Shown: positions 3,193 to 11,074 of the stretch, piece by piece
How the letters are laid out: every line of letters begins with the position of its first letter
Numbering within the stretch: position 1 is the first letter of the stretch
Source of the DNA: Bdellovibrionales bacterium
GTDB taxonomy: Bacteria; Bdellovibrionota; UBA1018
NCBI GenBank assembly: GCA_018968995.1
Contig: JAGWZD010000025.1
Location: 1-14,483, forward strand
DNA length: 14,483 bases
Direction of reading: 5' to 3'
Position numbers and translations under genes: made by a program
Notes under the pieces: generated by a model
Database searches by the model: none
Told to the model about the DNA's origin: nothing
Seen by the model: the letters and a program-made list of their open reading frames with translations, nothing else

Positions 3193-4542
3193 ATGTCAAA
3201 TCTTCAGGTTACCGTTGAAAAGGTTGAGAAAAAATCCAATATCCTTCGCCAATTGAAAGTACGCGTTCCTGCTAAGGTCGTGTCCTCACACCTCGAAAAG
3301 GGGCTACGGGAAGTTCAAAAGACAGCCAAGCTCAAAGGCTTCCGTCCAGGTCATGTGCCTCTGCCTGTGGTGAAGCAATTCTACGGCGAAGATGTCCGCC
3401 ACCAGGTTTTTCACGACCTCATTGATGAGTCGTTTCAGGAAGCGGTTCGCGGCGAGAAGCTCCGTGCTGTAGGTCGTCCCCAGATTGAAACTCCTGATCA
3501 CAAAACCGGTGCTGGTGAGCACGATCATTCGATCGAAGAGGGTAAGGATCTCACTTACGTTGCGACAGTGGAGGTAATGCCGGACATTGAAGTGAAAGGC
3601 TACACCGGGATTTCGCTGACTCGCGAATCCACGAAGGTTGAAAAGTCCGACATTCAAAAGATTATCGATAACTTTCAGAACTCTCAGGCTCAGCTGGTTC
3701 CGATTACCAATGAAAGCCACAAAGCCCGCAAGGGTGACTCGGTTGAGATGAAGTTCGAAGGCGGTTTGGTTGTGGGAGACAAAGTCGAGCCCAAGGCTGG
3801 AATGAGCGGCTCGCGATTGCTCGAGATTGGTTCAGATACCCTGATTCCCGGGTTTGAAGATAACCTCGTGGGAATGAAGAAGGGTGAGACCAAGACCTTT
3901 AAAATCGATTTCCCAAAAGACTTCTATGAGAAGGAGCTTGCTGGACAGCCAGCGAGCTTCACCGTCACCATCAATGAAATTAAGGAGAAGCAACTTCCAG
4001 AGCTGAATGACGAGTTTGCGAAGCAAATGGGCTATGAAAGCCTCGCTGATTTGAATCAGAAAGTGGAAGACCACCTCGCTCAGGAGAAGAAATCAGAGTC
4101 GGACCGTAAGCTTCGAAGCGATCTTCTTCAGGCGCTCATTGATAAGAATGCCTTTGATGTTCCACAGTCGCTGATTCAGGCGCAGGCGCGCGCTCTGGCT
4201 CAGGACGTAGCGCAGAATCTCAAGCGTCAGGGTGCCGATGACAAGACGGTTCAGGAAATCTTGATGTCCGAAATGCAAAATATTTCAAAGAAAGCCGAAA
4301 GCCAGGTGAAGGCAAGCCTGTTAGTGGAGGCAGTCGCTAAGGCTGAAAAGTTTGAAGTCACTGCCGAAGATCTTGAAGCTGAGATTTCTAAGATGGCGAT
4401 CAGCATGAAAGCTGAAGAGCAGAAGGTGAAGGAATTCTATATGAGCAATCCTTCCCGGAAGGAAGACCTCGAGTACCGTATCCGAGAGGAGCGAACCTTG
4501 GGTTGGCTTCTTGAAAAAGCAAAAATTAAAGACGCTAAATAG
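3193..4542 (+). CDS. tig: Trigger factor, ribosome-associated chaperone and peptidyl-prolyl isomerase
   Basis: Trigger factor binds the ribosome at the peptide exit (via protein L23) and shields nascent chains. The 449-residue product matches the family length. It has the N-terminal ribosome-binding signature LKGFRPGHVP (48-56), the FKBP-type isomerase domain (about 179-265, with GFEDNLVGMKKGE) and a long helical C-terminal chaperone region (266-449). A short Asp/His/Gly-rich insertion (about 102-119) lies between the N-terminal domain and the strand leading to the isomerase domain. The ATG at 3193 gives the conserved N terminus, but no good Shine-Dalgarno sequence is visible. The gene ends at an intrinsic terminator. 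It overlaps the convergent PilZ-domain gene by 8 bases at the 3' ends. clpP and clpX, frequent downstream neighbours of tig, are absent here. Confidence 0.97.
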   Translation: MSNLQVTVEKVEKKSNILRQLKVRVPAKVVSSHLEKGLREVQKTAKLKGFRPGHVPLPVVKQFYGEDVRHQVFHDLIDESFQEAVRGEKLRAVGRPQIETPDHKTGAGEHDHSIEEGKDLTYVATVEVMPDIEVKGYTGISLTRESTKVEKSDIQKIIDNFQNSQAQLVPITNESHKARKGDSVEMKFEGGLVVGDKVEPKAGMSGSRLLEIGSDTLIPGFEDNLVGMKKGETKTFKIDFPKDFYEKELAGQPASFTVTINEIKEKQLPELNDEFAKQMGYESLADLNQKVEDHLAQEKKSESDRKLRSDLLQALIDKNAFDVPQSLIQAQARALAQDVAQNLKRQGADDKTVQEILMSEMQNISKKAESQVKASLLVEAVAKAEKFEVTAEDLEAEISKMAISMKAEEQKVKEFYMSNPSRKEDLEYRIREERTLGWLLEKAKIKDAK

Positions 4543-6250: not shown

Positions 6251-7189
6251 TTAGGGTTGAGTGAGTCGATCTTCGAGCTTTTCAACCAGCTGCCTGAGGG
6301 TATGGAGGTATCCCTCGAGCTTTTGGTTTCCTTCAGTGGATTTCCATTTAAAGCTCGGAACCGAGAGCTTATCGCCCTCAAATTCGAACTGAAAAGGCTG
6401 GGGCTCTTTTTTGAGTTTATTAGCAGCGCTACTTTTCGTGGTGGTCCCGTCCTGTGGATCGACGAGAACCTCTTCTCTGGCTGAAGCTTCTTCAATCAGT
6501 GCGAGATGCTTTTCTTGGTCGATATTCAGCAACTGACGAAGCAATGAGCGATTTTTAAGTCCCCGCTTGAGAAGCTCTGCTTTGGTGTCCTCTGGAAGTC
6601 TGGTGAAACCAATGCATTCAGTGATTCTAGACTTCGGCTTACCGAATGCTTTCGCAATCGTGTCATGGCTTGTGTAGAGCTGCGCCTCAAGTAAGGACAG
6701 GTACCCTTCTCCTTCTTCAAGAGGATGAAGATCTACGCGGTCAAGGTTTTCACGAAGAGCAATCTCGTGGGTAGCCTTGTCGTTTGTCGAAAGCACGCGA
6801 GCTGGGATCCGCTCCATTCCTGCGAGTTTCGAGGCGCGAAGGCGGCGTTCGCCAGCGATGACCTTGTAGCGATCTCCGTCTTGAACAACCAAAATCGGCT
6901 GGAGAACTCCATGTTCTTTGATTGAGTGCGCGAGTGCTTGAACTTCTGAGTCATCAAAGTGCACGCGCACTTGAAGTTCAGAAGCATCAACCTTCTCCAC
7001 CGGAACGAAGTTCACCAGAAAGGTGGTGAGATTTTTCAGATGAGAGTGAGTCGTGCCAGCGGTGTTACGTGCAGTCGAATAGAGCTGCTTTAAGTAGCCG
7101 CTTCCCTGGCGAGTCTTAATCTTGCTGTCTTCAGCAGGCTTTGTGGTTTGTTGGCTTTCCGTTGCGTTCAGTTCACTGTTCTTATCCAT
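6251..7189 (-). CDS. parB: ParB/Spo0J-family partition protein
   Basis: ParB proteins bind parS sites, hydrolyse CTP and spread on DNA as clamps to form the partition complex moved by ParA. The 312-residue product has a variable N terminus (1-62) and a ParB/sulfiredoxin-like domain (about 63-155). That domain has the CTP-binding boxes GERRLRAS (113-120) and ENLDR (147-151, often ENIQR in other members). An HTH region follows (about 168-198, TIAKAFGKPKSRITECIGF). The C terminus (about 286-310) is leucine-patterned and may be the dimer interface. The start ATG 7189 has AGGAG nine bases upstream. It follows parA by 27 bases and forms an operon with it, closed by an intrinsic terminator. The HTH differs from the usual chromosomal ParB type, which fits a different DNA site. 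The symbol is by family; it may not be the main chromosomal parB. Confidence 0.92.
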   Translation of the reverse strand: MDKNSELNATESQQTTKPAEDSKIKTRQGSGYLKQLYSTARNTAGTTHSHLKNLTTFLVNFVPVEKVDASELQVRVHFDDSEVQALAHSIKEHGVLQPILVVQDGDRYKVIAGERRLRASKLAGMERIPARVLSTNDKATHEIALRENLDRVDLHPLEEGEGYLSLLEAQLYTSHDTIAKAFGKPKSRITECIGFTRLPEDTKAELLKRGLKNRSLLRQLLNIDQEKHLALIEEASAREEVLVDPQDGTTTKSSAANKLKKEPQPFQFEFEGDKLSVPSFKWKSTEGNQKLEGYLHTLRQLVEKLEDRLTQP

Positions 7190-7216: not shown

Positions 7217-8266
7217 TTAAGTAAAAATCAGTTCTTCAGCGAGGCTGTTGATGTCCTGAGCGGCTGTACCTTTAGAGCTCACGTCCCAAACAGTGGTGCG
7301 GCGTTTGGTTGCTTCATTCAGGTCAGCAGATCTGTTGATGACTGTTCGAGTGCAGGACTCTGGAAACTGAGTCCGAAGCTCACCCAAAACTTCCTGGCTG
7401 ATCACTTCACGGTTGTCGTACATGTTCGGCACGATTCGAACCTGAAGCTTGTGACGGAATTCCCGTTCCAGCTCCTCGATCGTCGTCATGACCAGCGACA
7501 TTCCATGAAACGAAAGAGGGTTGGTTGCGCAAACCACATTCACTAGGCCCGAAGCCACAAGCATCGATCCGTTCAGAATCGAGGCAGCTGGGTTGGTGTC
7601 TGCGACGATCAGGTCGTACTGATCGGCGATTTTCGCAATCGCCTCCGAGAGACGGTACTCACGACGCGGCTTGTTATTGAGCGGAATCTCAATATTACAG
7701 AGCCCCAGATTCGCTGGAATCAAATCCAGCCCGGGCGCCACATTTATGACGCTTTGATCGATGGGTAGATCATTGATCAGAACGTCGTAAATTGTGGGGC
7801 GTTCATGAGCATCGAGGATATCGAGGTTCACAGTGAGGTGGCCCTGACCATCGAGGTCAATGGCCAGAACTTTGAGTCCCATCATCGAAGCGCGCATGAC
7901 GTACTGAGCGGTAAGAGTCGATTTACCGGTTCCGCCCTTCACGTTGTAGAACATTTGAATCTTGGTCTTGGGGCGTTTGAACAAAACGTCGGTCGCCGCG
8001 GCGACCGATGAGAGCGCCTCGACTGGAATCGGGGCACCCGCGGCCTCTGCCCCGTCACCCATGGAAGCTGGGGCTGTGTCCCGAACAGTGCGGAAATAAT
8101 CCTGCATGTCCTCAAGAGTGATCATCTTTCGATCCACGTTTCCGATCTTTTTCTTGATCGTTTTGAGAAGACCCTGCTGCTCTAAGTCTCCGATGATGGA
8201 TTTGTCGAGCTTTGCCAACTGCGCAAATTCGGCGGGTGTGAAGCACATTTCACGAAATGAAGCCAT
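7217..8266 (-). CDS. parA: ParA-family partition ATPase with N-terminal HTH-like domain
   Basis: ParA ATPases bind non-specific DNA when ATP-loaded and move ParB-parS complexes. The 349-residue product has a deviant Walker A box KGGTGKST (110-117), the Walker A'-like IDLDGQGHLT (136-145) and a Walker B-type DLIVADTNP (218-226). Residues 8-60 (FTPAEFAQLAKLDKSIIGDL and the following MITLEDMQDYF) look like a MerR-type winged helix, as in larger plasmid-type ParA proteins that repress their own operon. An Ala/Gly-rich linker (about 62-98) joins the two parts. One copy of the palindrome is encoded in it (S87-D93). The start ATG 8266 is supported by AAGGAGG nine bases upstream. Two more palindromes lie upstream of the gene, so autoregulation through ParA or ParB is likely but inferred. 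The symbol is by family. Confidence 0.93.
   Translation of the reverse strand: MASFREMCFTPAEFAQLAKLDKSIIGDLEQQGLLKTIKKKIGNVDRKMITLEDMQDYFRTVRDTAPASMGDGAEAAGAPIPVEALSSVAAATDVLFKRPKTKIQMFYNVKGGTGKSTLTAQYVMRASMMGLKVLAIDLDGQGHLTVNLDILDAHERPTIYDVLINDLPIDQSVINVAPGLDLIPANLGLCNIEIPLNNKPRREYRLSEAIAKIADQYDLIVADTNPAASILNGSMLVASGLVNVVCATNPLSFHGMSLVMTTIEELEREFRHKLQVRIVPNMYDNREVISQEVLGELRTQFPESCTRTVINRSADLNEATKRRTTVWDVSSKGTAAQDINSLAEELIFT
7989..8008. promoter_or_regulatory. Palindrome copy 1, inside parA (candidate parS/operator)
   Basis: A perfect 20-bp dyad: TCGGTCGCCG followed by its reverse complement, identical to the core of copies 2 and 3. It encodes residues S87-D93 in the linker of ParA. The symmetry stops at 20 bp here (7988 and 8009 do not pair). 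Confidence 0.65.
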
Positions 8267-8275
8267 GAGAACTCC

Positions 8276-8282
8276 CCTCCTT
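8276..8282 (-). promoter_or_regulatory. Shine-Dalgarno sequence of parA
   Basis: AAGGAGG on the minus strand, nine bases before ATG 8266. It is the strongest ribosome-binding site in the minus-strand block and fixes the parA start. Confidence 0.8.
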
Positions 8283-8315
8283 GAGAGTCGGTAAGAAAAA
8301 CCTCTGACGCACCTG

Positions 8316-8343
8316 ATTGTAGTGCGACGAGTTCATGGCGCAA
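8316..8343 (-). promoter_or_regulatory. Possible sigma70-type promoter of parA-parB
   Basis: On the minus strand TTGCGC (8338-8343) is followed after 16 bases by TACAAT (8316-8321, five of six matches to the consensus -10). The -35 match is weak (three of six). Palindrome copy 2 begins 10 bases upstream of the -35 box. Confidence 0.4.
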
Positions 8344-8353
8344 GTGCTAACTA

Positions 8354-8381
8354 CAAATCGGTCGCCGCGGCGACCGATTTG
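8354..8381. promoter_or_regulatory. Palindrome copy 2, upstream of parA (candidate parS/operator)
   Basis: The same 20-bp core (8358-8377) is extended by CAAA on the left and TTTG on the right into a perfect 28-bp dyad. It lies between the ABC exporter operon and the parA promoter-like sequence. Its centre is 46 bp from the centre of copy 3. No T run follows on either strand, so it is not an intrinsic terminator. Confidence 0.72.
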
Positions 8382-8399
8382 GGTGTTCTGAGTCTCGTG

Positions 8400-8427
8400 A
8401 TCTTCGGTCGCCGCGGCGACCGAAGAT
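8400..8427. promoter_or_regulatory. Palindrome copy 3, upstream of parA (candidate parS/operator)
   Basis: The same 20-bp core (8404-8423) is extended by ATCT on the left and AGAT on the right into a perfect 28-bp dyad. It lies 10 bases after the stop codon of the last ABC permease gene. The arms differ from those of copy 2 but remain self-complementary. Confidence 0.72.
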
Positions 8428-8437
8428 GAATTGGAAA

Positions 8438-9250
8438 TCAACTGCTCGCGCTTTGATAGCGACGAAGTCCCGCTTTCCATAGAGAGCGATTCAGGAAGAA
8501 GAAAGAAATCAAGACTACCGCCAGGACCACCACTTCTGGAGTGGTGAGTCCGTGAATCACAGCACGAGCCGGGATGCTTCCAATAAAAGCAAAGGGAAGA
8601 GCCGTCATGATGAGGTAGCGAATGGCTCGTGGGTAGAGCGTGTCGGGCTTAGTCGCGAAGGAAAAAAACTGATAATAGAGACGCGAAAAAATAAATCCGC
8701 GCTCTGTCCAAAAGATCCACACGCTAAAGGCGAATCGAAGTAGCACGGCGGCAGTGAGTCCAAAGAGAAGCCAGAACCCCAGATTCAGCCAGTGCCAGCC
8801 TCCTGGGAACCCGGCGCTTTCGGCGTAACGAATGATGATCCCCAGGCCCAGTAAGAAGTTGAAACCCGCAGTGAGGTTGATCCACCGGGTGAGGGAAAGG
8901 AACACAGGCGAGATCGGTTTAGTGAGTAAGATGTCGAGCTCGCCCCGATTGACGAGATCGGAAAAGTTCCAAAAATTCCTCTGAAAGAAGATCGTGAAAA
9001 GCGCGTCTGAGGCGAAGAACACTCCCAGAAAAAAGTACACTTGGTCGCGAGTCCAGCCAGCCAGTGTGGGGGCGTTTGCGTAGATCACTCCAAACAGAGT
9101 GAACTCCACGGTGATCCAGATCATGTCCACCGCTACAGAGGTGAGAAAGTTGGTGCGATACACAGCCTCTCGCACCCAATTGTTTTTGAGTTGGACCCTG
9201 AGGATCGATAGCCCAAGGCGGATTCTCTGAGAAAGCGAAGTCACGTCCAT
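8438..9250 (-). CDS. ABC-2 type exporter permease (COG3694-like)
   Basis: This is the third gene of an ATPase-permease-permease exporter operon. The protein, about 270 residues, has an amphipathic N terminus, then about six membrane segments (including VAVDMIWITVEFTLFGVIYA and VVVLAVVLISFFFLN near the C terminus). The motif RGELDILLTKPISPVF in the first third is typical of this permease family, in which NYLLKPI/LTKPI follows a Gly-Glu or Gly-Ser. The start is uncertain. ATG 9250 is chosen, but AGGAG sits only two bases before it; GTG 9244 is better spaced, and GTG 9265 would overlap the upstream gene. The gene is followed by two palindromes and not by an intrinsic terminator. The substrate is unknown; families of this layout are annotated as putative multidrug or lipid-type exporters. 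Confidence 0.88.
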   Translation of the reverse strand: MDVTSLSQRIRLGLSILRVQLKNNWVREAVYRTNFLTSVAVDMIWITVEFTLFGVIYANAPTLAGWTRDQVYFFLGVFFASDALFTIFFQRNFWNFSDLVNRGELDILLTKPISPVFLSLTRWINLTAGFNFLLGLGIIIRYAESAGFPGGWHWLNLGFWLLFGLTAAVLLRFAFSVWIFWTERGFIFSRLYYQFFSFATKPDTLYPRAIRYLIMTALPFAFIGSIPARAVIHGLTTPEVVVLAVVLISFFFLNRSLWKAGLRRYQSASS

Positions 9251-9257
9251 CTCTCCT

Positions 9258-10043
9258 TTAACCACCGAGGCTTGAGTACTTGCGGATTCCCCAGCCCCAA
9301 GACAGGCGAATGAGAACCGATAATCCCATCATCCAAGCCAGGGCCATTCCCAGCCCGTGCAGGTATTCCGAATGCGTCCAGTTTCCGAGGGCGTACTGGG
9401 TGGGGCCGTAGACATATAAATAGAAGGGAGTGGATTTCCAGATCCACTGACTCGCTACTGGAAAAAGGTTCAGCGGAATGAGCTCGCCCGAGAGCAGCTG
9501 AACCAGCATGTTCTTAACCATGAGCAAGCTGTAGGCTTCCTCCCAAAGAAAGGCCGCCGTGGCGAGCACTGCTCCAATTTGGTAGTGAATGACGTTCCCG
9601 GCGATCGCGAGGAGCATCGCTCCCCAAAGACGAGGAATCGAAAATCCGAAAGCTGCAAACGCGAGTGTTCCGATGCAAAGACAAACCAAAGCTACAAACA
9701 AACGGCCACCCACGCCGCGTAAGTAGACAAACTCCACTGCGCTGATGGGCTTAAGTAAGTAATTACTGAGGCTCCCCGTGCGAATCATCTCTTGAAGATC
9801 AAAGTCGTGATCCCCGCCGCGCACTTGAGTGAAAAGGGTGCTGACTAAGGTGTATTGAATGAGCTGGGCGTAGCTCCAGCCAGCAACTTCGGTCTGACCG
9901 CCTAGTTGAAAAAGGGCGTACCAAAGAATGATCTGAATCGCTGCAGGTACCAGGGCCGAACTAAAGATCGACAGGAAAAACTCGACTCTGTAGGCCGCGT
10001 CCTCTTGGAAGCCATTTTTCAGTGCAGCCAGGCGCCAGCTCAT
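9258..10043 (-). CDS. ABC-2 type exporter permease (COG4587-like)
   Basis: This is the second gene of the exporter operon. The 261-residue protein has about six membrane segments and the family motif RTGSLSNYLLKPISAVEF (about 88-105), cognate to the LTKPIS motif in the next gene. The two permeases probably form a heterodimer in the inner membrane, with the ATPase dimer below them. The ATG at 10043 overlaps the ATPase stop codon in an ATGA arrangement, which indicates translational coupling. The gene ends at 9258, directly before the Shine-Dalgarno-like AGGAG of the next permease. The substrate cannot be read from the sequence. Confidence 0.9.
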   Translation of the reverse strand: MSWRLAALKNGFQEDAAYRVEFFLSIFSSALVPAAIQIILWYALFQLGGQTEVAGWSYAQLIQYTLVSTLFTQVRGGDHDFDLQEMIRTGSLSNYLLKPISAVEFVYLRGVGGRLFVALVCLCIGTLAFAAFGFSIPRLWGAMLLAIAGNVIHYQIGAVLATAAFLWEEAYSLLMVKNMLVQLLSGELIPLNLFPVASQWIWKSTPFYLYVYGPTQYALGNWTHSEYLHGLGMALAWMMGLSVLIRLSWGWGIRKYSSLGG

Positions 10044-11074
10044 GTCGAACCCTTTGCCTCATTGGACTCGCCTGATTCATACATTCGCTGAATCACATAT
10101 TCGAGGTCAGGCTCATGAATGCTCATGTCGATGACTTGGTAGGACTGCATCAGTTTCTGAAGAGTGCCGACGATTTGCTCGTTTCCTAAAGTGAATCGAA
10201 CTGAGCCCTCTGGGATCTCTTCTTCAGTCTCGCCGTTAGCCAAAACGATTTGCGAACTGGCCACGCCTGTTTGACGAGAGAGTTCCTCGGCCGTTGGTTT
10301 CTCTAGAAGTCGAACCGAGAGCTGACGCTCGCCTTTTTTAGTGAGACCTTCAGGTTTCCCGTCGTAGATCATTTTTCCTGAGCGCAAGATCATCACTCGC
10401 GAGCAGAGCCTCTCGATGTCGTCCATGTTGTGGCTGGTGAGAATGATGGTGGCCTTCTCGCGGTGGTTGAACTCGCGAAGAAATTCCCGAAGCTTATGTG
10501 CTGCTAGAACATCCAAGCCGATGGTGGGTTCATCGAGGAAGATCACTTTCGGCCAATGTAAAAGAGCGCCGATCAGTTCCATTTTCATCCGCTCTCCTAG
10601 CGAGAGACGACGAATTTGGGTCTGAAAAAGCCGAGTCACGTCGAGTAACTCCGCCAGAGTGTGCAGCCTTTCCTGGTATTTGGCTTTTGGGATTTCATAG
10701 ATGGCTTGAATCAAATCAAAGGCATCGACGGCCGGAAGATCCCACCAAAGCTGGGCCTTCTGGCCCATGACTAACGAGATGCTTCGTCGAAAATCTAAAG
10801 TGCGCTCAAAGGGGTCGACGCCTAGTACTCGAGCCTTCCCACTGCTAGCCGGAATGAGTCCGGAAAGAATTTTTAAGAGAGTCGTTTTTCCGGCCCCGTT
10901 GGCTCCGATAAGGCCCACAAAGGCCCCGGCCTCGATAGAAAAGGACACTTCTTGAAGGGCCTGGCTTTCTTGGTACTCGGGCTTCACGAGGAGCTCGAGG
11001 GTTCCCTTGAGTCCGGCTTTCTTTTTTACAGAGCGGAAGGACCGGCTGACGCGGTCCACTTCAATGACGTGCAT
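10040..11074 (-). CDS. ABC exporter ATP-binding protein (COG4586-like)
   Basis: This is the first gene of the exporter operon. The 344-residue protein has a full nucleotide-binding domain: Walker A GANGAGKTT (57-65), the ABC signature LSLGERMK (157-164), Walker B VIFLDEP (177-183), a D-loop GLD (186-188) and the H-loop His215 in TSHNMDD. About 100 extra C-terminal residues (245-344) form a regulatory-type alpha/beta extension, as in ATPases paired with ABC-2 permeases. The insertion SVKKKAGLKGTLELLVKPEY (15-34) before the Walker A strand is characteristic of the COG4586-type family. ATG 11074 is used although no Shine-Dalgarno sequence is visible; the conserved N terminus HVIEVDRVSRSF begins there. 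The tRNA-Phe gene lies 58 bases upstream on the same strand, so read-through is possible. Confidence 0.94.
   Translation of the reverse strand: MHVIEVDRVSRSFRSVKKKAGLKGTLELLVKPEYQESQALQEVSFSIEAGAFVGLIGANGAGKTTLLKILSGLIPASSGKARVLGVDPFERTLDFRRSISLVMGQKAQLWWDLPAVDAFDLIQAIYEIPKAKYQERLHTLAELLDVTRLFQTQIRRLSLGERMKMELIGALLHWPKVIFLDEPTIGLDVLAAHKLREFLREFNHREKATIILTSHNMDDIERLCSRVMILRSGKMIYDGKPEGLTKKGERQLSVRLLEKPTAEELSRQTGVASSQIVLANGETEEEIPEGSVRFTLGNEQIVGTLQKLMQSYQVIDMSIHEPDLEYVIQRMYESGESNEAKGST

Follow-up and report, generated by a model that had tools for sequence, protein, structure and literature searches.

The palindrome and the parA-parB pair

In a draft genome of the Bdellovibrionales (G000; 87% complete, 453 contigs), a parA-parB pair, here parA2 and parB2, is accompanied by three copies of a palindrome, which raises the question whether these copies constitute the centromere of a partition system or the operator of some regulator. 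The window, i.e., the whole stretch of DNA analysed, comprises 14,483 nucleotides of this genome. A 20-bp palindrome is exact at its positions 7989-8008, 8358-8377, and 8404-8423; one copy lies within parA and two are located in the gap upstream of it (Table 1). The original prediction of three exact copies, with none elsewhere in the window, was borne out, and no further 20-bp palindrome with up to three mismatches was found in the 2,412,595-base (2.41-Mb) draft genome besides the window's three. Judging from the comparisons described below, the palindromes are very probably parS2 sites, at which ParB2 would be loaded; together with ParA2 and ParB2 they would make up a second ParABS (ParA2-ParB2-parS2) that has become a fixed part of the chromosome in the order.

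Table 1. Features of the parAB2 locus (positions in the window)
Feature	Position	Strand	Description
parB2	6251..7189	-	ParB with CTPase N-domain and HTH; Pfam ParB_N 2.1e-24, HTH_ParB 3.2e-08
ParB2 recognition-helix segment, residues 183-199 GKPKSRITECIGFTRLP	6593..6643	-	near-invariant (39 genomes); different in 19 canonical ParB
ParB2 N-terminal conserved peptide, residues 25-41	7067..7117	-	at the place of the canonical LG(R/K)GL ParA-binding motif
parA2	7217..8266	-	ParA ATPase with predicted N-terminal winged helix-turn-helix; KGGTGKST; Pfam AAA_31 1.3e-34; AF2, Foldseek
ParA2 predicted N-terminal winged HTH, residues 1-64	8075..8266	-	AF2 H11-18, H22-30, E37-41, E44-50, H51-64
Putative parS2 copy	7989..8008	.	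core 7991-8006; in the parA2 ORF, linker between winged HTH and ATPase
Putative parS2 copy, 28-bp perfect palindrome	8354..8381	.	16-bp core 8360-8375; upstream of parA2
Putative parS2 copy, 28-bp perfect palindrome	8400..8427	.	16-bp core 8406-8421; upstream of parA2

The conserved core and its distribution

Comparison of relatives reduced the conserved part of the palindrome to 16 bp, GGTCGCCRYGGCGACC. The palindrome proposed originally is real, but its conserved unit is these 16 bp (18 bp with the flanking Y/R) and not 20 bp. The base flanking the core is C or T in 98% of the half-sites, and the core centre (n=139) reads GC in 51 cases, AC in 43, GT in 41, and AT in 4. In the 47 parA2 loci scanned (one per genome, 525,540 bases in total), 141 cores are exact; a single mismatch occurs in 22 further cores, two mismatches in 7, three in 18, and four in 114. 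The corresponding numbers for a reversed-pattern control in the same loci are 0, 0, 1, 9, and 77. The invariance of the exact set follows from its having been searched as exact; it is the mismatch counts that show the sharpness of the word. Chance in a G+C-rich background was ruled out by the absence of exact matches to the reversed pattern and by 200 dinucleotide-preserving shuffles of the window, none of which contained the 20-bp palindrome at up to three mismatches. The longest perfect palindrome in 40 Markov simulations of the window measured 20 bp in one run and at most 18 bp in the remaining 39. An RNA hairpin or terminator was thought unlikely, since the stem letters are invariant, with no covariation, and the copies in coding sequence occupy two frames.

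The exact core is present in 48 of the 55 genomes of the window's order versus one of the 313 other genomes of the phylum; in the same whole-genome scan the reversed pattern gave one match each in two of the 368 genomes. The single core outside the order (G227) is situated inside an ORF resembling dnaJ by eye, with neither parA2 nor parB2 in the stretch examined around it. Orthologs of parB2 (E <= 1e-40) occur in 47 of the 368 phylum genomes, all in the window's order and in all six of its families, and orthologs of parA2 (E <= 5e-135) occur in the same 47 genomes. As expected of relatives that carry the orthologous pair, every one of these 47 genomes also has the core. Among the 55 genomes of the order, 47 have the pair and the core, seven have neither, and one (G052, 72% complete) has three cores without the pair, the last of them 250 bases from a contig end; its parAB2 may fall in an assembly gap. 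The eight genomes without parA2 and parB2 are G025, G032, G038, G041, G043, G051, G052, and G053, seven of which also lack the core. Within genus g24, parA2, parB2, and the core are all present in G031 and all absent from G032. Fisher tests of the co-occurrence of parA2, parB2, and core are extreme but ignore relatedness, and the joint absence in three families (f1, f2, and f6) constitutes the better argument. As parA2 and parB2 always occur together, co-occurrence speaks for the pair and cannot tell which of the two proteins would bind the core.

Viral contigs contain the core at other loci as well (at least 80 loci; among the matches listed, 79 with a single copy and one with two). In so large a collection, such single copies could have arisen by chance.

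Position of the copies and selection on the DNA

The order contains 158 exact cores (row sum over 55 genomes), of which 150 are located at the parAB2 locus: 141 in the 47 scanned loci and nine more (four in G017, one each in G008 and G031 on the same contig, and three on G014:C88, which adjoin the ABC genes, the G014 locus being split over contigs). Three of the others are the contig-end cores of G052. The remaining five lie away from the locus (G000:C40, G005:C68, G014:C110, G033:C104, and one unplaced core of G023), so that the word is local and not scattered through the genomes. The copy on G000:C40 (6019-6034, L198) is the fourth 16-bp core of the window's genome; it lies isolated and directly before an AMP-binding enzyme gene, as does the core of G005:C68 (L199:7567-7582), these being both genomes of the window's genus. 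The two may be a distant copy that has been conserved, or the core may serve regulation there. Another exact core, L197:8996-9011 (G033:C104:26996), is found within an ORF that by eye resembles mnmG; the canonical parA is 2-3 kb away, and this core may be due to chance.

Exact clusters comprise one to seven copies. Only one exact copy is found in G019, G039, and G050, which is few for a centromere; in Pseudomonas aeruginosa a single parS suffices, according to two papers (PMC4368675, PMC7022226). Cores inside parA2 number 40, with one or two per genome in 34 of the 47 genomes, and lie 179 to 353 bases into the gene, between the N-terminal domain and the ATPase. Sixteen of them are read in one frame (GR[HR]GD) and 24 in another (VA.AT). 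An identical DNA word in two frames and at differing positions means that the DNA, not the peptide, is conserved; the DNA of the core itself is thus under selection. No core was found in parA2 in 13 of the 47 genomes, nine of them in family f2.

These positions bear on the possibility that the palindrome is an operator through which ParA2 (by its winged HTH), ParB2, or another regulator controls parAB2 or the neighbouring ABC operon, with no part in partition. The in-gene copies, in two frames and in 34 genomes, argue against it, as do the three copies in the 20-kb stretch of G023, which sit 1.6-3.0 kb upstream with none at the parA2 promoter, the six copies of G017 spread over about 7 kb, and the persistence of the core in G033, G048, G049, and G054, in which parA2 showed no ABC gene next to it. 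The operator reading can draw on the two copies in the gap upstream of parA2, on the winged HTH predicted in ParA2, and on spacing: the nearest upstream core lies 76-203 bp before the inferred parA2 ATG in 42 of the 47 genomes, the exceptions being G017, G018, G034, G023, and G019 (the stretch of the last stops at a contig end). An operator without partition is unlikely. The operator was an alternative to partition in the original prediction; as the only role it is weakened by the in-ORF copies, the copies at 1-7 kb, and the absence of any within 1.6 kb upstream in G023, whereas as an additional one it is likely. With such spacing in 42 of the 47 genomes, autoregulation in addition to partition is likely, and the predicted DNA-binding domain of ParA2 together with the promoter-near copies implies that the palindrome may partly serve as an operator. 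Autoregulation is known of type Ia ParA proteins and speaks for the operator reading.

ParB2

The ParB2 alignment comprises 39 sequences from as many genomes (the other 8 of the 47 fall outside the set) and was compared with 19 canonical ParB from the order (20 loci fetched). The GERR box, a CTPase motif, is present in 39/39 ParB2 and 19/19 canonical ParB. The HTH proved as unusual as predicted: the recognition helix differs from the canonical one and is near-invariant, its segment reading GKPKSRITECIGFT(R/K)LP. With Caulobacter residue numbering anchored on the GK motif, as given in part of PMC7383237, residue 173 is Lys in all 39 ParB2 vs Arg in all 19 canonical proteins, and residue 178 is Glu in all 39 vs Asn in all 19; both positions are DNA contacts in ParB, changed and invariant in ParB2. 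Residue 162 is His (31) or Tyr (8) in ParB2 vs Gln in 19/19 canonical ParB, and residue 172 is Pro in 36 of the 39 vs Asp or Glu. Residue 201 corresponds to Ser, Ala, or Gly as aligned, or to Arg if a one-residue insertion is set later; this insertion before helix 6 makes the position ambiguous, so that the recognition rule cannot be read off. A match of C6 with Arg201, after the Noc rule in the cited part of PMC7383237, was dropped, as the MAFFT alignment and the start of the helix at R214 in the AF2 model put Ser, Ala, or Gly at 201. The AF2 model is poor overall (pLDDT 60) and good at residues 161-239.

The half-site, G0 G1 T2 C3 G4 C5 C6 R7 when lined up on the dyad, differs from the canonical TGTTTCAC (GGTCGCCR at parS2). 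It agrees with parS at G1, T2, and C5, and with the Noc site at C6. Such agreement fits ParB-type docking on a 16-bp palindrome. In the literature, the letters of the half-site led to no ParB work by title, among the matches listed. At the N-terminus, LG(R/K)GL is found in 0/39 ParB2 vs 19/19 canonical ParB; it is replaced by GSG(Y/F)L(K/R)QLY in 38 of the 39, the remaining one being cut by a contig end. Two irregular genes were observed: the parB2 match of G033 (L206, G033:C37) is broken into two pieces that differ in frame, and a TGA interrupts the parB2 match of G035 (G035:C10:36703-37593), through either assembly error or decay.

Noc, with its NBS sites, is a ParB-fold protein with a 16-bp palindromic site of its own, and ParB2 might similarly spread from its sites to act on division or membrane, as in nucleoid occlusion or DNA anchoring, and not on segregation. 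The closest NCBIfam model is indeed nucleoid_noc, and Noc structures are among the PDB relatives of ParB2; the score, however, is 148.9 bits, below the cut-off of 315, and ParB2 stands apart from the one Noc included in the tree (long branches). Noc sites are scattered round the chromosome, as described in PMC4331003, whereas 150 of the 158 exact cores lie at one locus, and a cognate ParA adjoins ParB2 in 47/47 genomes. A Noc-like role is thus highly unlikely, even more so than an operator.

ParA2

ParA2 is 349 residues long. No Pfam match was obtained for residues 1-100, and residues 1-64 are predicted to form a winged HTH, i.e., a type Ia-like N-domain with putative DNA binding; the AF2 model has a mean pLDDT of 80-87 for blocks of residues 11-60 and of 68 as a whole. 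In Foldseek, Soj-type ATPases come first (about 250 columns), followed by 3ez2, titled Partition protein, which we take to be that of P1, and Vibrio cholerae ParA2 (7npe), with 381-397 columns, gaps included; the latter alignments therefore exceed the length of the ATPase domain. With its predicted winged HTH ahead of the ATPase, ParA2 resembles ParA of type Ia, the kind encoded by plasmids and secondary chromosomes; it differs from that kind in that Soj-type ATPases rank higher, the gene is on the main chromosome, and the protein is shorter.

Genomic setting

The window encodes an outer-membrane protein, truA, tig, a protein with a weak PilZ match, mscS, parB, parA, two ABC2_membrane_6 proteins, an ABC ATPase, and an M28 peptidase, and looks chromosomal. 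The outer-membrane protein (24-2321) contains a CFI-box domain mid-protein (over the cut-off) and a sub-cut-off Bd0486-like beta-barrel at its end. The ABC transporter operon (two ABC2_membrane_6 genes and the ATPase, 8438-11074) adjoins the sites and could feel the spreading of ParB2.

Synteny with the window, which extends across families, was compared in stretches of 27 parAB2 genomes and of G052, several of which stop at contig ends. In 23 of the 27 genomes the cores have ABC genes next to them (inverted in G023), and tig is downstream of parB2 in 16; no tig was seen in the kilobases past parB2 in G007, G012, G018, G023, G027, G050, and G054. The G052 stretch gave no match to the window's genes. 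The parAB2 locus is chromosomal: canonical parAB, dnaA, and parAB2 share one contig in G027 (843 kb), G035 (675 kb), and G050 (909 kb), the three of the genomes looked at in which the distance from parB2 to dnaA is measurable. This distance is about 179, 308, and 157 kb, respectively, and the canonical pair lies about 12-17 kb from dnaA.

Most relatives hold canonical parAB and parS besides parAB2. Canonical parS (TGTTYCACGTGRAACA, up to one mismatch) is found in 51 of the 55 genomes of the order (reversed control: 5/55), among the matches listed usually on the contig that also carries canonical parAB, and was not found in G000, G009, G020, and G044. In the window's family, a canonical-like ParB with 30-38% identity (E 5e-21 or better) is encoded by 32 of the 35 genomes, and 30 of these encode ParB2 as well; G025 and G032 have the canonical-like ParB only, G000 and G020 have ParB2 only, and G003 has ParB2 and a weak canonical-like piece. 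In the G000 draft neither a canonical ParB or pair nor TGTTTCACGTGAAACA at up to two mismatches was found, which may reflect an assembly gap at 87% completeness; coexistence is accordingly demonstrated for the relatives and not for the window's own draft. The original prediction of a self-contained ParABS system is supported, with the correction that these bacteria have another ParABS as well.

Plasmid relatives

In small trees with long branches, in which plasmids are represented by five ParB and four ParA sequences, the pair of a Candidatus Megaera polyxenophila plasmid (CP113872) is nearest to ParA2 and ParB2. Its ParA likewise has about 65 residues ahead of the ATPase domain; its ParB, in contrast, is 34.7% identical to ParB2, and no GGTCGCC palindrome is present in the 5.6-kb stretch fetched. 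A plasmid-type origin of parAB2 is only suggested by these trees. Three of the plasmid parAB loci looked at carry paired palindromes of their own in or after parB, i.e., the same plan as parAB2 with other words. These candidate plasmid parS are L352:2902-2919 and 3326-3343 (Nitrosococcus), L357:3298-3315 and 3382-3399 (Chlorohelix), and L356:3390-3407 and 3507-3528 (Azospirillum).

A recent capture of parAB2 as a plasmid or mobile element, in which case its palindrome would be a plasmid parS without chromosomal role, is extremely unlikely, the least probable of the readings considered. The pair occurs in 47/55 genomes and six families, tig and the ABC genes flank it as described, it lies on the dnaA contig in three genomes, and no plasmid or phage record reaches 60% protein identity to ParB2 (tblastn; distant ParB only, six of the plasmid matches being fetched). 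The points in its favour are the Megaera pair, closest of the few plasmid pairs compared, the plasmid-type N-domain predicted for ParA2, and the lack of LG(R/K)GL, shared with plasmid ParBs as described in part of PMC13245405. Synteny largely refutes a recent capture; an old plasmid origin of parAB2 is possible.

Relation to known partition systems

Canonical ParABS (Soj/Spo0J, parS TGTTTCACGTGAAACA) resembles the present system in having a ParA ATPase, a ParB with CTPase motifs and HTH, and 16-bp palindromes by parAB. The parAB2 locus has the genes of a type I ParABS (a Walker ATPase gene of the ParA type beside a ParB gene, the latter with GERR and HTH) and its sites (palindromes clustered near parAB and co-inherited with it). 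It has none of the canonical marks, i.e., canonical parS at the locus, LG(R/K)GL, and, as measured in three genomes, closeness to oriC/dnaA.

In the Streptomyces plasmid SCP1, according to the cited part of PMC13245405, a single DNA molecule likewise carries a pair of type I HTH-ParB systems, each with a parS of its own; the ParBs are without LG(R/K)GL, and three identical inverted repeats are situated around the parAB1 operon. SCP1 is a plasmid, whereas here both systems are chromosomal and conservation of the second extends through an order. For Bdellovibrio bacteriovorus, passages of PMC10547168 and PMC7186360 describe a single parAB along with two near-consensus parS and a further two parA genes that are orphans. 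A second chromosomal ParABS is not named in the passages on chromosomal ParB in PMC7022226 or on the ParB-CTPase fold in PMC12704722, and the open-licence literature yielded no report of a second ParABS on the main chromosome or of a non-canonical parS in this group. As far as searched, the machine is of a known kind; new are the DNA word, its place, and the coexistence with the canonical system.

Proposed function and implications

ParB2 would bind CTP, load at clusters of GGTCGCCRYGGCGACC, and slide onto flanking DNA, and the resulting partition complex would stimulate the ATPase of ParA2. Nucleoid-bound ParA2 could then move or anchor the parAB2 region of the chromosome, in parallel to the canonical ParABS beside dnaA. 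The cellular task that we infer is thus the movement or anchoring of DNA located 150-300 kb from the origin. ParB2, and perhaps the winged HTH of ParA2 too, may regulate the parAB2 operon. Cross-talk with the canonical ParABS is proposed to be absent because the DNA address and the recognition helix differ. More broadly, it seems reasonably likely, if less so than the assignment of the palindromes to parS2, that two orthogonal ParABS operate on one chromosome throughout the order: the canonical one at the origin and a plasmid-derived, domesticated second one with its own centromere 150-300 kb away.

Chromosomal parS sites are among the most conserved bacterial DNA words. ParB2 represents a naturally occurring ParB clade whose new word is fixed, with more than 140 aligned sites and a canonical control in the same genomes. 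Among ParB specificity switches, the one for which a detailed account was found is that of the ParB/Noc pair (PMC7383237, in the part cited); with this clade, its sites, and the canonical control, the ParB recognition code becomes testable outside that pair (Glu at 178 and Lys at 173). The system also offers an orthogonal ParB-parS pair for DNA labelling and raises the question why one chromosome keeps two partition systems. If the proposal is true, a single bacterial chromosome would have two dedicated centromeres of different specificity.
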